Positions 980-9,828 of a stretch of 24,578 nucleotides of DNA are shown piece after piece; the first letter of the stretch is position 1, and the number at the start of each line of letters is the position of its first letter. The stretch comes from a virus. Location: IMG/VR virus record IMGVR_UViG_3300032579_000071, positions 1 through 24,578 of that record, one strand, 5' to 3'. The notes beneath the pieces were generated by a model that did no database searches, was not told the DNA's origin, and saw nothing but the letters and a program-made list of their open reading frames with translations. A program made the translations under genes and the position numbers.

Positions 980-1140
980 TGGATTATTCAGAATATTTGA
1001 TCGGAATTACAGCGGCCATTAAAGAATATCGCCAGTTTATGCTTAAAAACGATCATCAAAACGCATTGATTGTTTCTGTTGAAATATCATCTTTGGCATT
1101 AGCTTTAGAAGATTGGACGCTAGATAAAAGTGGCAACTAA
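979..1140 (+). CDS. Hypothetical 53-aa protein
   Basis: 53 aa. The ATG at 979 shares one base with the previous TAA (977-979), and the gene ends in TAA at 1138-1140, overlapping the next gene by 11 bases. The product has an aromatic N-terminus (MDYSEYL) and an amphipathic helical C-terminal half (VEISSLALALEDW). Tight packing on both sides supports a real gene, although no SD site is visible and it would depend on coupling. I do not recognise the family. Confidence 0.5.
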   Translation: MDYSEYLIGITAAIKEYRQFMLKNDHQNALIVSVEISSLALALEDWTLDKSGN

Positions 1141-1396
1141 AGCGCAGCGTGAACATTACGGCAAAGTTGCACAATTAGGCTGCATACTTTGCTTGCATTT
1201 GGGATATGAAGATACGCCATGTGAAATTCATCATATTCGACATTCAGGAAAGCGTGACAATGCGCCTGTAATTGGATTATGTCCAGAGCATCATCGAGGC
1301 AATACTGGTGTACATGGAATGGGATGCAAAGCATTTGCTAGGCATTATGGATTGTCAGAACAAGATTTGCTTGAAATGACAAGTATCAAACTTTGA
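1130..1396 (+). CDS. Ref-type HNH nuclease / recombination enhancement protein
   Basis: 88 aa from a GTG start at 1130; no in-frame ATG precedes the first conserved cysteine, so GTG is the best start. The sequence shows a Cys/His frame typical of small zinc-bound HNH nucleases: C18-x2-C21, C31, the pair H34-H35, C51, the pair H54-H55 and H62. The order CEIHHIR, GLCPEHH, GVHGMG is what I know from the phage P1 Ref family, where the nuclease cuts RecA-bound DNA. Compared with P1 Ref it is short, lacking the long N-terminal extension and keeping only the catalytic globule. Its stop codon lies inside a 13-bp palindrome shared with the stop of the convergent gene. A generic HNH endonuclease is the alternative. 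Confidence 0.72.
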   Translation: MATKAQREHYGKVAQLGCILCLHLGYEDTPCEIHHIRHSGKRDNAPVIGLCPEHHRGNTGVHGMGCKAFARHYGLSEQDLLEMTSIKL

Positions 1397-1397
1397 T
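1385..1397. repeat. 13-bp palindrome holding both convergent stop codons
   Basis: ATCAAA-C-TTTGAT. The TGA of the plus-strand HNH gene (1394-1396) and the TGA of the minus-strand phosphoesterase (1386-1388) sit symmetrically inside it. It is too short and AT-rich to be a strong terminator. It may be only a by-product of tail-to-tail packing. Confidence 0.5.
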
Positions 1398-2333
1398 TAT
1401 CTTGCCGCGGAATACAACTTCATCTTCGCCAAAGACTTGTACAAGTTCAGGCATAAGCAATTTGCCACGTTCAAAAGTAAGCACAGCAAAACCCGATCGC
1501 CAGTCTTTCGGGCTATCTTCTGTATAATCTGCAAATTGATCGCCGTTAGGTTCAGCTAATGTTCCAGTCTGAACGCCCCAAAGTGTGCCGTTGTAATTGG
1601 TAATAGGTTGAACAGCTAAAACGTGAGTATGTCCAGTGACCATATTTACTCCACCGGCAATAATATTTGCATATCCAGCGTTTCTGCCGCCTTTATATCG
1701 GTGTTTGATGCAAGTATCTTCATTGATCCAGTATGACCAGCATGGCAGCCAATTGGGAAAATGGTCTTTAAGACTAAACCCTGAAATCCCCTCGAAAGCC
1801 GAGGCAGAGTTAGCGAGCATGGTTTCAAATCTTGCATCGTGATTACCCATTGTCCAAATCAAAGGACATTTTGCTATTTTTTCAATCTCTCCAAGATAAA
1901 ATTTGCAGGCATTAAGCTCATCTTTAATGGTTGGCTTTTTATCCCATCCAATACGAGGAAAGCGGCTAATTGATCCACCATCAAAGGCATCACCGTTATT
2001 AACAATAACTTTGGGTTTTAATAGCTTAATTATTTTAAGTAATGCACGAAAAGCAGTGGTTGTATCATCAGGCCAGAAGTGAGCATCAGAAAATACAATG
2101 ACAACGCCAGAATCTAAATCTATTCCTCTGCGAACGTGCCCAGGGGTCTGTTCACGTTTAATATTTTGTTGTAGACTACTTTTACTTAATAATGAAATTC
2201 CATGTCTAATTTCAATACTTCGGCGTCTGGAAAATATATTCCGAATAGAAATGCCCGTATTAGCTGAAATCTCCGTAGGACTGCCATGTTCATTCCACAG
2301 TTTAATAAATTCATCATCAGTTAAGATTGACAT
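1386..2333 (-). CDS. Calcineurin-like metallophosphoesterase with N-terminal HTH-like region
   Basis: 315 aa, the only clearly supported minus-strand gene. The full set of metallophosphoesterase motifs is present in order: D83-A-H85, G114-D115, G163-N-H-D166, H211, and G234-H-T-H237. These bind two metal ions and support phosphodiester or phosphomonoester hydrolysis. Residues 1-50 look like a resolvase-type helix-turn-helix (EISANTGISIRNIFSRRRSIE), suggesting DNA binding. Similar HTH-phosphoesterase proteins occur in environmental phages; the substrate is unknown to me. The start ATG at 2333 is two bases from the likely start of the divergent VRR-NUC gene, and the 3' end overlaps the HNH gene by 11 bases. 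No SD is visible upstream. Possible roles are nuclease, nucleotide phosphatase or 2',3'-cyclic phosphatase; the sequence does not decide among them. Confidence 0.88.
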   Translation of the reverse strand: MSILTDDEFIKLWNEHGSPTEISANTGISIRNIFSRRRSIEIRHGISLLSKSSLQQNIKREQTPGHVRRGIDLDSGVVIVFSDAHFWPDDTTTAFRALLKIIKLLKPKVIVNNGDAFDGGSISRFPRIGWDKKPTIKDELNACKFYLGEIEKIAKCPLIWTMGNHDARFETMLANSASAFEGISGFSLKDHFPNWLPCWSYWINEDTCIKHRYKGGRNAGYANIIAGGVNMVTGHTHVLAVQPITNYNGTLWGVQTGTLAEPNGDQFADYTEDSPKDWRSGFAVLTFERGKLLMPELVQVFGEDEVVFRGKIIKV

Positions 2334-2335
2334 AT

Positions 2336-2605
2336 ATGAGAGCCAAGAGGACAGATGTTAATCAAAAAGAGATTGTTCACGCTTTAAGAGAGCATGGAGC
2401 AGTAGTAACAGATTTATCAGGCGTTGGTAAAGGATGCCCTGATTTGTTGGTTGGATTTAACAAAACTACCTATCTTATTGAAATTAAACGAGATAGTAAA
2501 GCAAAGTTTACACCGGAACAGTTAAAATGGTATGACAATTGGTGCGGTGGCATCGTTGCCAGGATTGAAAACGTTAAAGATGCTATTGAATTGATTAACA
2601 AATAG
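2336..2605 (+). CDS. VRR-NUC domain nuclease
   Basis: 89 aa from ATG 2336; a TTG at 2327 would add three residues, but ATG with a weak AAGA at 2323-2326 is preferred. The protein shows the PD-(D/E)xK core of the VRR-NUC family: K32, P35-D36, then E49-x-K51 after two beta strands (DLLVGF, TYLIEIKR), and a conserved Gln at 62 (PEQLKW). Small stand-alone VRR-NUC proteins from phages are known as structure-specific nucleases, with Holliday-junction resolvase-like activity in some cases. The length is normal for the phage type. The gene runs divergently from the phosphoesterase with only two bases between start codons, so the two genes cannot have independent upstream control regions outside coding DNA. 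Confidence 0.82.
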   Translation: MRAKRTDVNQKEIVHALREHGAVVTDLSGVGKGCPDLLVGFNKTTYLIEIKRDSKAKFTPEQLKWYDNWCGGIVARIENVKDAIELINK

Positions 2606-2916: not shown

Positions 2917-3207
2917 ATGGCTGCTATACATTCTACTGAAAGCTGTTCAGACTGTCTATATTGGATGCGGGGTGACGTTATTGGTCAATGCCGCCGCTTT
3001 CCCGTTTCCGAAACAAAACATCAAAATTCATGGTGTGGTGAATACAGCGAAATAACATTTGAAAAATTAAGCACTGAGTTTATAAGGCTTTACGATCAAA
3101 TAGACGAACAGAAAAAAATTGATGCAGAAATTATTGCAAAATCCAATGCAGAAGTTGAATTGCCAAAAGTAAAGCGTGGCCGTCCAGCAAAGGATAAATC
3201 ATGCTAA
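2917..3207 (+). CDS. Four-cysteine (zinc- or Fe-S-like) protein with AT-hook-like tail
   Basis: 96 aa, ATG at 2917 behind a strong AAGGAG (2902-2907). The N-terminal half has C10-x2-C13-x11-C25-x14-C40 with CRRFP and a WCGEY end, a pattern seen in small uncharacterised phage proteins and suited to one metal site. The spacing also resembles high-potential iron-sulfur proteins (CxxC, C, then Trp-Cys), but there is no export signal, so zinc is more likely. Residues about 50-80 form a charged helix. The C-terminus has KRGRPAK, matching the AT-hook core RGRP, which binds the minor groove of AT-rich DNA. The gene overlaps the co-chaperonin start by seven bases. The binding roles are inferred from motifs only. 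Confidence 0.65.
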   Translation: MAAIHSTESCSDCLYWMRGDVIGQCRRFPVSETKHQNSWCGEYSEITFEKLSTEFIRLYDQIDEQKKIDAEIIAKSNAEVELPKVKRGRPAKDKSC

Positions 3208-3482
3208 AGCCATTGAAAGGAACGATTGTTGTAAAGCCTATTGAACGCATCAAGTCATCTATTATTGATGTGATTATGTCTGAAAAAGATAATATGGGTA
3301 CGATTGTCGCAGTAGGGGCAGAAGCCGCAAAGCATCTTCATGTGGGCGAGTTTGTAAGATACGGGACAATGGGTAAAGATGAATATCTCAAGTATCAAGA
3401 ATACTTTGAAGATGGCAAACGATTACTCATTATGAATTGGAAAGACGTTTGTTTTGTTTCAGAGGAAAATCATGCCGCTTAA
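3201..3482 (+). CDS. GroES-like co-chaperonin (Cpn10)
   Basis: 93 aa, overlapping the previous gene. The sequence follows the Cpn10 pattern: N-terminal PLKGTIVVKPIE, a short mobile-loop-like segment (about residues 17-28, KSSIIDVIMSE), the GTIVAVG strand, VGEFVRYG, and the closing strands with DVCFV. Phage Cpn10 proteins (T4 gp31 is the known example) cap host GroEL to fold the major coat protein. Bacterial GroES is about 97 aa, so the length fits. No GroEL is seen here, so it would use host GroEL. The mobile loop is not the standard GGIVLT-type sequence, though SSIIDVIMS keeps a hydrophobic Ile-Ile/Val-Ile pattern able to dock on GroEL. Co-location with packaging and head genes supports a capsid-folding role. 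Confidence 0.72.
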   Translation: MLKPLKGTIVVKPIERIKSSIIDVIMSEKDNMGTIVAVGAEAAKHLHVGEFVRYGTMGKDEYLKYQEYFEDGKRLLIMNWKDVCFVSEENHAA

Positions 3483-7654: not shown

Positions 7655-8554
7655 ATGTCCGATGTACGAGAAGCAGGATCAGTTGTAACCAGTGAAAATT
7701 TAGCCGAGTTCCATGCACAAAAACTGGGTTTGGCTGTAGATGATGCTCCTAATGAGGCTGAGGAATCAGAGCCGTTAGTCGAGGCAGAATCACAGAGCGA
7801 CACAGAAGCAGAGAATGAAAGCGAAGTAACAGAGAAGCCGAAAGCTAATCCTAAGTTAGAAAAACGATTTTCTGAGCTAACTAAACAGCGTGAACAAGCC
7901 AGGCAGGAAGCTGCTGCGGCTAAAGCTGATAAGGAAGCGTTAGAGAATCGTATACGAGAGCTAGAGGGCAGAAGCAATCCCGTTAAAAAGGACGTTTCTG
8001 TACTTGATGAGCCTCAGCCGAGCCAGTTTAATGATGCGTTTGAATACGCAAAAGCATTAGCTGAATACTCGACTGAGAAAGCATTGAGCGAGCGAGATCG
8101 ACAAGATGCCGAACGCATTGCAAATAGTCAGCGTGAAAAGGTTATTGATACCTGGACAAAAAGACTAGATGCTGCAAAAGCTAGTTTGCCTGATTTTGAT
8201 GACATGGTGCAAAGCGCTGATGTTGCGGTAAGCAATGATGTGCGTGATGCGATTTTGGAAAGTGAAGTAGGGCCACAAGTTCTATATCATTTAGCCGAAA
8301 ACCCTGAGTTTGCTAAAAGTTTGTCAGAAATGACTACTCAGAAATCTCTGCGTGAACTTGGTAAATTAGAAGCACGTTTTGAAGTTAAAGACGTAGAAAG
8401 CAAGCCTGTTGCTGTGAAGTCTAAAGCACCTGCTCCTATCAACCCTTTGAAAGCTAGTAGCTCTGGTATAGATGTGAAAATGGATACAAATGGTGTATTT
8501 CACGGAACATATCAGCAATACAAAGAAGCTCGCAAAGCTGGCAAGATCAGGTAA
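7655..8554 (+). CDS. Scaffolding protein
   Basis: 299 aa from ATG 7655, chosen over the TTG at 7643 because GAGGAA (7645-7650) lies four bases before the ATG and would fall inside the longer reading. The gene sits between portal and coat, the scaffold position. The product is acidic at the N-terminus (about residues 30-70, Glu/Asp/Ser-rich), then has a helical coiled-coil region (about 70-115: QREQARQEAAAAKADKEALE). A further helical region carries the middle part, and the tail is short and basic (QQYKEARKAGKIR). Such a basic C-terminal tail is where P22-type scaffolds bind coat protein. It directs procapsid assembly and leaves before or during packaging. Sequence identity among scaffolds is low, so the call rests on position and architecture. 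Confidence 0.82.
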   Translation: MSDVREAGSVVTSENLAEFHAQKLGLAVDDAPNEAEESEPLVEAESQSDTEAENESEVTEKPKANPKLEKRFSELTKQREQARQEAAAAKADKEALENRIRELEGRSNPVKKDVSVLDEPQPSQFNDAFEYAKALAEYSTEKALSERDRQDAERIANSQREKVIDTWTKRLDAAKASLPDFDDMVQSADVAVSNDVRDAILESEVGPQVLYHLAENPEFAKSLSEMTTQKSLRELGKLEARFEVKDVESKPVAVKSKAPAPINPLKASSSGIDVKMDTNGVFHGTYQQYKEARKAGKIR

Positions 8555-8580
8555 CACAATTTATCAATTAAGGAAATATC

Positions 8581-9828
8581 ATGGCAAATAACTTGCTAAC
8601 CATTAGTAAAATCACGAACGAGGCCTTGATGGTTCTCGAAAACGAACTTACGTTCACATCAGAAGTTGATCGTAACTATGATGACCAGTTCGCTGTTGTC
8701 GGTGCAAAGATTGGAGCAACTGTAAACGTTCGTAAGCCTGGTCGTTTCATCGGTACAACTGGCCCTGCGCTTAACGTTGAAGATTTCAACGAGAGTTCGG
8801 TTCCTGTTACCTTGTCGACTCAGTTCCACGTTGATACACAATTCACGACACAAGACTTGGCTTTGTCGTTGGATATGTTTAGTGACCGTGTTCTGAAGCC
8901 TGCTGTCGCAGCTATCGCCAACAAGATCGACCGTGATGGTTTGGTTATGGCTAAAAACAGCACAGCTAACATCGTTGGTACTGCTGGCGTTCCACCTACA
9001 GGTCTGATTACATACCTGACAGCCGGTGCATATCTTGATTCTGAAGGCGCACCCCGTGATGGCCGCCGTTCATGTATCGTTGAACCATTCACATCTGCAA
9101 CTATCGTTGACTCGCTAAAAGGCTTGTTTATGCCCGCTACTAAAATCAGCGAGCAATACGAGAAAGGTTTGATGGGTCGTGATTCATCCGGCATGAATTG
9201 GAAACTTGACCAGAACGTTGTGTCACAGACTTTCGGTTCGTATGCAACTTCGGTTTTGACAACCAACACAGCAACATTTGCTGGTTCGCTCACATCCGGT
9301 TGGGCTCAGACTTCAACCATCACAATCTCTGCTGCAACGGCTGCTGCTGCGATTAACCAAGGCGATGTAATCACAATCGCTGGCGTTTACGCTGCTAACC
9401 CACAGAACCGTCAGGCTTACGGCTCGAACAAACTGCGTAACTTCGTAGTGACTTCTGCTGTGACCATCGCTTCAAGTGGATCAGCTTCTGTAACAGTATC
9501 GCCAGCCATCATTACTGCTGGTCAATTCCAGAACGTTGTTGTTTCGACAACATCAAGCTCTGCTGCTGTGACACCATTTAACAACACTGGTATTGTTTCC
9601 CCACAGAACATTATCATGCACAAAAATGCGTTCACACTCGCAGTCGCTGATCTGGAACTGCCAGAGGGCGTTCACTTTGCCGGTCGTGCAAGCGATAAGG
9701 AAATCGGTTTGTCAATGCGTGTGGTTCGCCAATACACGATTAACAACGATTCGATCCCTACCCGTTTGGACGTTCTTTACGGTTGGGCTCCTCTGTATCC
9801 AGAACTGGCTTGCCGAGTTGCAGCTTAA
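8581..9828 (+). CDS. Major coat protein, P22 gp5-like (HK97 fold)
   Basis: 415 aa (P22 gp5 is 430). ATG behind AAGGAA (8570-8575). The N-terminal part (SKITNEALMVLENELTF; VGAKIGATVNVRKP) matches P22-family coat proteins. The segment from about residue 230 to 320 is beta-rich and contains GDVITIAGVYAANPQNRQ, a hallmark of the family's inserted I-domain region. The C-terminal part (DLELPEGVHFAG; RLDVLYGWAPLYPELACRV) is also typical. Codon use differs from the fibre genes: AAC, ATC, TTC and other C-ending codons are frequent, as in highly expressed genes. A strong terminator follows directly. It forms the icosahedral shell, probably with help of the upstream GroES-like protein. Confidence 0.93.
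   Translation: MANNLLTISKITNEALMVLENELTFTSEVDRNYDDQFAVVGAKIGATVNVRKPGRFIGTTGPALNVEDFNESSVPVTLSTQFHVDTQFTTQDLALSLDMFSDRVLKPAVAAIANKIDRDGLVMAKNSTANIVGTAGVPPTGLITYLTAGAYLDSEGAPRDGRRSCIVEPFTSATIVDSLKGLFMPATKISEQYEKGLMGRDSSGMNWKLDQNVVSQTFGSYATSVLTTNTATFAGSLTSGWAQTSTITISAATAAAAINQGDVITIAGVYAANPQNRQAYGSNKLRNFVVTSAVTIASSGSASVTVSPAIITAGQFQNVVVSTTSSSAAVTPFNNTGIVSPQNIIMHKNAFTLAVADLELPEGVHFAGRASDKEIGLSMRVVRQYTINNDSIPTRLDVLYGWAPLYPELACRVAA

Follow-up and report, generated by a model that had tools for sequence, protein, structure and literature searches.

The locus described here raises the question of whether a minus-strand gene for an HTH-metallophosphoesterase (MPE), lodged between two plus-strand nuclease genes, forms one unit with these nucleases or belongs to something else. 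The gene lies in the record IMGVR_UViG_3300032579_000071, a freshwater bacterial virus that was recognised as a P22-like podophage by its portal (PF16510) and terminase, and all 24.6 kb of which were analysed (the window). The plus strand carries, in this order, a replication-like gene, a gene for a 109-aa protein, a Ref-like HNH nuclease gene, a VRR-NUC gene and the packaging genes, so that the MPE occupies a nin-like region with the terminase downstream (Table 1). The layout reported in the initial annotation was borne out: the MPE and HNH genes overlap by 11 bases at their 3' ends, the MPE starts two bases from VRR-NUC, and the MPE is the only convincing reverse gene in the window (27 plus-strand against two minus-strand genes, the second of the latter being an overlapping ORF). 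Elsewhere, the window contains a GroES-like co-chaperonin gene (3201–3482, phrog_3188), whose position upstream of terS is conserved among related phages, and the contig end (22615–24576) codes for a large protein that matches tail fibres and endolysin/metallo-endopeptidase-like proteins.

Table 1. Features of the MPE locus (window coordinates).
Feature	Position	Strand	Evidence or remark
HTH-metallophosphoesterase (MPE), 315 aa	1386..2333	-	PF00149; phrog_221, E=3.5e-28; eight metal ligands; AlphaFold pLDDT 82
MPE three-helix HTH (residues 6–44), invariant RRR (36–38) in third helix	2202..2318	-	Alignment and AlphaFold
MPE calcineurin-like catalytic domain (residues 76–314): SDAH, GDxFD, GNHD, KHR, GHTH	1392..2108	-	PF00149, alignment, AlphaFold
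MPE/HNH convergent stop-end overlap, 11 bp	1386..1396	.	Slot of a minus-strand protease gene (~115 aa) in nearly all close relatives; empty here
MPE/VRR-NUC start-start gap (divergent), 2 bp	2334..2335	.	Relatives: 11 bp with MPE Shine-Dalgarno, or ~45 bp with promoter-like element
Ref-like HNH nuclease, 88 aa	1130..1396	+	PF16786 RecA_dep_nuc, 39.8 bits
VRR-NUC/Hjc-like resolvase, single-domain, 89 aa from ATG	2336..2605 (TTG alternative 2327)	+	PF08774, 24.2 bits; PF01870, 22.9 bits

Relatives of the window MPE were encoded by 223 stretches in a first scan, which identifies it as a real gene. Its metal motifs are complete, as had been noted at the outset: the profile score against PF00149 was 38.6 bits (cut-off 21.5), and the ligands D83, H85, D115, N164, H165, H211, H235 and H237 were all invariant among 48 aligned relatives. 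The HTH-like nature of the N-terminus is likewise supported by AlphaFold helices at residues 6–16, 19–26 and 30–44 (pLDDT about 85) and by the invariant RRR. Mre11/SbcD, which has a calcineurin-like fold and the GDxFD and GNHD motifs in common with the MPE, ranked top in a Foldseek search of the PDB, although with a TM of about 0.39 this is a generic match only, and VPS29, LpxH and purple acid phosphatase likewise scored against the model. Unlike Mre11/SbcD, the MPE has an N-terminal HTH, gave no match to an Mre11 family profile in profile searches and is encoded with no recognised SbcC/Rad50 gene adjacent; a sequence search of the PDB returned nothing meaningful. Among 84,980 genomes there were seven matches, all on metagenome-assembled contigs whose neighbouring genes give them a phage-like appearance, and a cellular origin of the MPE was rejected.

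Among the 94 MPE-seeded relatives in which both flanks were covered, 93 carried a small protease gene adjoining the MPE on the same strand, 90 of them coding for SprT-like zinc proteases and three for HslV-family peptidases, whereas the trio of HNH, MPE and VRR-NUC was present in only 37. A SprT-like gene directly followed the MPE on the same strand in 112 of 126 distinct untruncated loci, and in 78 of these 112 its start overlapped the MPE stop by 4 bp (ATGA). Reciprocal searches agreed: at 70 of 75 loci found with SprT as the seed, the gene immediately upstream codes for an MPE (the exceptions include L311, where the order is swapped, and L368, with a weak and different MPE-like gene), and 29 of 50 HslV-seeded loci lay adjacent to an MPE on the same strand. 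Seeded lists are biased to query-like loci and close loci are phylogenetically dependent, so that the at least six changes of protease type counted on the MPE tree, next to at least eight changes of location, are the safer figure. Together, these counts identify the unit as very probably a mobile two-gene cassette of an HTH-phosphoesterase and a small protease, either a SprT-like zincin or an HslV-family peptidase.

Within the family at or above about 50% identity the association is tight, and it is loose beyond. Among distant homologues, an HExxH protein was adjacent in L083 and L089, and no protease was found beside the MPE in L084, L085, L088, L090–L092 and the mycobacteriophages. In one relative (L022), a GNAT acetyltransferase occupies the protease slot. 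Twenty HslV-like and three SprT genes had no MPE, and those inspected lay in the capsid-gene region, suggesting that the proteases can act without the phosphoesterase. These lone SprT (L318, L319, L321) and HslV-like genes (L382, L384, L394, L401, L407) stand among capsid-region genes with a small HNH gene adjacent, a locus that constitutes a second site used by both protease types. Two further arrangements were observed, namely an HNH/endonuclease-VII-like gene between MPE and SprT (L045, 6930–7502; L054, 6939–7499) and distant MPE copies in or beside lysis genes coding for endolysin, holin or spanin-like proteins (L083, L084, L088–L091, L311).

Against PF10263 (cut-off 25.6 bits), the SprT-like proteins of L026 and L056 scored above the cut-off (27.0 and 29.2) and that of L002 just below it (24.4). 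The residues H76, E77, H80 and H92 of the HExxH...H motif are invariant in 40/40, and the structural model (pLDDT 94.6) has human SPRTN (6mdw, TMq 0.65) as its best fold match in the PDB. The cassette protein differs from SPRTN in being minimal (114–118 aa), in having no C-terminal regulatory part and in its coupling to a phosphoesterase. The alternative partner falls below the Pfam Proteasome cut-off and matches phrog_1040 (peptidase HslV family) with E about 1e-25 (4.7e-25); all four such proteins begin with MTT, which is typical of HslV, Thr2 is conserved, and so are Lys and Ser positions. These peptidases are set apart by their length of 139–154 aa and their site beside the MPE. HslV normally depends on the ATPase HslU. 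No meaningful match was returned for either protease by sequence searches of the PDB. In podovirus ctn9Y15, a SprT-like gene beside the MPE (L082, 8951–9295, corresponding to 8513–8857 of MW202674) is absent from the GenBank annotation. Membership in a known defence system was rejected for MPE and SprT, as neither matched a PADLOC model (a library of defence systems, outside which anti-defence falls); VRR-NUC gave a weak match to LmuA (E=0.001).

The HNH and VRR-NUC genes are native, co-oriented neighbours that lie outside the cassette. Both gene products scored above the profile cut-offs (26.9 bits for PF16786, matched from residue 2; 23.8 for PF08774 and 21.1 for PF01870). The window HNH shares the PF16786 core with P1 Ref and, at 88 aa, has no counterpart of the 76-aa basic N-terminal segment that anchors P1 Ref to DNA (PMC4330346). 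In L111, L112 and L097, the HNH and VRR-NUC genes are directly joined without an MPE, overlapping by 4–19 bp, and of 31 terL-related contig clusters spanning the region, only two had the MPE. Conversely, there are phages with an MPE but neither nuclease, and the gene also occurs in divergent orientation to RusA, to a Q-like gene or to the terminase gene (terL), or follows the gene of a giant virion protein. The co-occurrence of the three genes expected from the initial annotation was thus not upheld, and the trio was rejected as a linkage claim. What stood of the proposal of an exchangeable cassette is that the MPE belongs to one of fixed orientation, divergent from VRR-NUC wherever the two occur together (53 loci) and convergent with HNH in 74/74; the trio itself is not that cassette. 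The replacement of VRR-NUC by RusA upstream of the MPE (L018, L023–L028, L082) represents an exchange of non-homologous Holliday-junction resolvases.

The cassette is inserted gene-exactly and in inverted orientation between the co-oriented HNH and VRR-NUC genes. In L103, the two nuclease genes are separated only by a gene that is PAPS-reductase-like by eye; on one side, the sequence matches the flank of L102, a phage that has the cassette, as far as the SprT stop, and on the other side the match is to the L007 VRR gene and sets in at the start of that gene, so that the insert runs exactly from the SprT stop to the MPE leader. The gene of L103 (1680–2470) has counterparts in L007, L010, L017 and L019, coding for 220–284-aa proteins that are PAPS-reductase/DndC-like by eye, and their presence in the same interval indicates that the HNH–VRR interval is an insertion hotspot. 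The distances of MPE and SprT were moderately correlated (Mantel r 0.475), no better than those of MPE and VRR. About 45 bp upstream of the MPE in L052, L059, L060, L254–L262 and others, a conserved, partly palindromic, promoter/operator-like element (GTTAGTrTTTAGyAACTTA..TATAAGGGGAA) lies between the MPE and VRR starts.

Overall, the explanation that we consider best, and probable, is that the window MPE is what remains here of a mobile MPE–protease cassette with a DNA-directed mechanism. The mechanism taken by itself is tentative and argued by analogy: the HTH would bring a two-metal phosphodiesterase or nuclease to DNA, the coupled protease would strip proteins bound or crosslinked there, and phage DNA would thereby become free for replication, resolution or packaging. 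The cellular parallels would be Mre11/SbcD and SPRTN or the proteasome, which act separately in cells. SbcCD cleaves DNA beside protein blocks (PMC6265447), and SPRTN and the proteasome are the proteases named for eukaryotic DNA–protein crosslinks (PMC11098752). A role on DNA is suggested indirectly by the recombination and packaging neighbourhood, by the Mre11-type fold matches (at low TM) and by protease classes resembling those that remove crosslinks; processing of DNA ends by the predicted MPE is possible. The most specific form of this reading, a phage module for clearing DNA–protein crosslinks or protein blocks in which an HTH-targeted, Mre11-like phosphodiesterase is translationally coupled to an interchangeable SPRTN-like or proteasome-like protease, appears doubtful; if true, it would mirror the two eukaryotic routes of proteolytic crosslink repair.

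Almost equal in standing to the DNA-clearance mechanism is the possibility, similarly tentative, that the cassette is a moron for host takeover or counter-defence, in which the MPE would hydrolyse a nucleotide, a cyclic nucleotide or a phosphoprotein and the protease would degrade a protein of the host or of its defences. Their joint travel would then reflect the use of both genes against host resistance, with no common DNA substrate. The polymorphic presence of the cassette, its frequent relocation and its swapping of partners are in line with this reading, as are the promoter-like and Shine-Dalgarno signals of its own in relatives, the generic MPE fold and the occurrence of the proteases without the MPE. 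The conserved basic HTH, however, points to binding of DNA or a promoter, and the lack of PADLOC matches for MPE and SprT also counts against a moron, although less so given that the library excludes anti-defence.

The window is an exception among its relatives in that its MPE is the surviving half of the cassette, the protease half having been lost. Neither SprT or HslV profile matches nor HExxH ORFs were found in the 24.6 kb of the window, a contig that is probably incomplete, so that a displaced protease may lie elsewhere; no other viral contig with the MPE–HNH junction of the window was found, and the protease-less junction rests on one assembly. The gap between MPE and VRR is 2 bp here against 11 bp, with an AAGG-type ribosome site, in the closest relatives, and the window MPE has no Shine-Dalgarno sequence (upstream pairing energy -1.5 against a median of -5.8 kcal/mol, the fifth weakest of 101). 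Potential sigma-70 promoter sites were no commoner than in shuffled sequences, and none was suitably placed just upstream of the MPE. The missing protease, the shortened gap and the lack of a Shine-Dalgarno sequence, together with a terminal tree branch of 0.48 that is longer than those of its neighbours, could be read as a decaying remnant whose expression disappeared after the loss of the partner and the translation signal. We regard this as unlikely, since the ORF is intact with all catalytic residues kept and the contig is probably incomplete. Moreover, relative-rate tests with four outgroups gave no significant acceleration (p>0.05 in 27 of 28 comparisons; the remaining one pointed to a slower rate), and accelerated decay was not pursued as a reading. 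Given this and the intact active site, a working MPE with weak translation or altered expression and a decaying one are equally likely.

Two further readings fare worse. The nin region of lambda contains, beside a junction nuclease, the gene for the phosphatase NinI (lambda phosphatase), and the similar setting of the MPE, with Holliday-junction nucleases and a Q-like gene adjacent, might suggest a comparable protein phosphatase. This is very unlikely, as the MPE has GDxFD and GNHD rather than GDxVDRG and GNHE, the motifs of PPP phosphatases, and carries an additional DNA-binding-like HTH. Least probable is one DNA-end-processing or recombination cassette of HNH, MPE and VRR-NUC, since the adjacency and fixed orientation of the three genes at a minority of loci are outweighed by nuclease pairs without an MPE, MPEs without the nucleases and the assortment of genes (RusA, Q-like, terL or virion) that takes the place of VRR upstream of the MPE.

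Phage MPEs (phrog_221) and SprT-like proteins are each already known, and their coupling is apparently undescribed; no description of an MPE–protease pair was found in the open-licence literature. The MPEs of cluster A mycobacteriophages (PHROG 221, e.g. Chargerpower gp54) belong to the same catalytic family, with 26–29% identity to the window MPE, but lie in a DNA-replication operon with no protease adjoining. SprT-like proteins are known singly, for example in mycobacteriophages (PMC12363180). As a rule, annotations treat phage phosphoesterases and SprT-like proteins singly and assign them no function. With the two genes tightly coupled, the protease independently replaced and the cassette repeatedly relocated, a functional link becomes testable and would offer an entry point to the role of enzymes that are common in freshwater phages. 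Should the cassette act on protein-blocked DNA, its two proteins would make up a minimal equivalent of the crosslink repair of eukaryotes.
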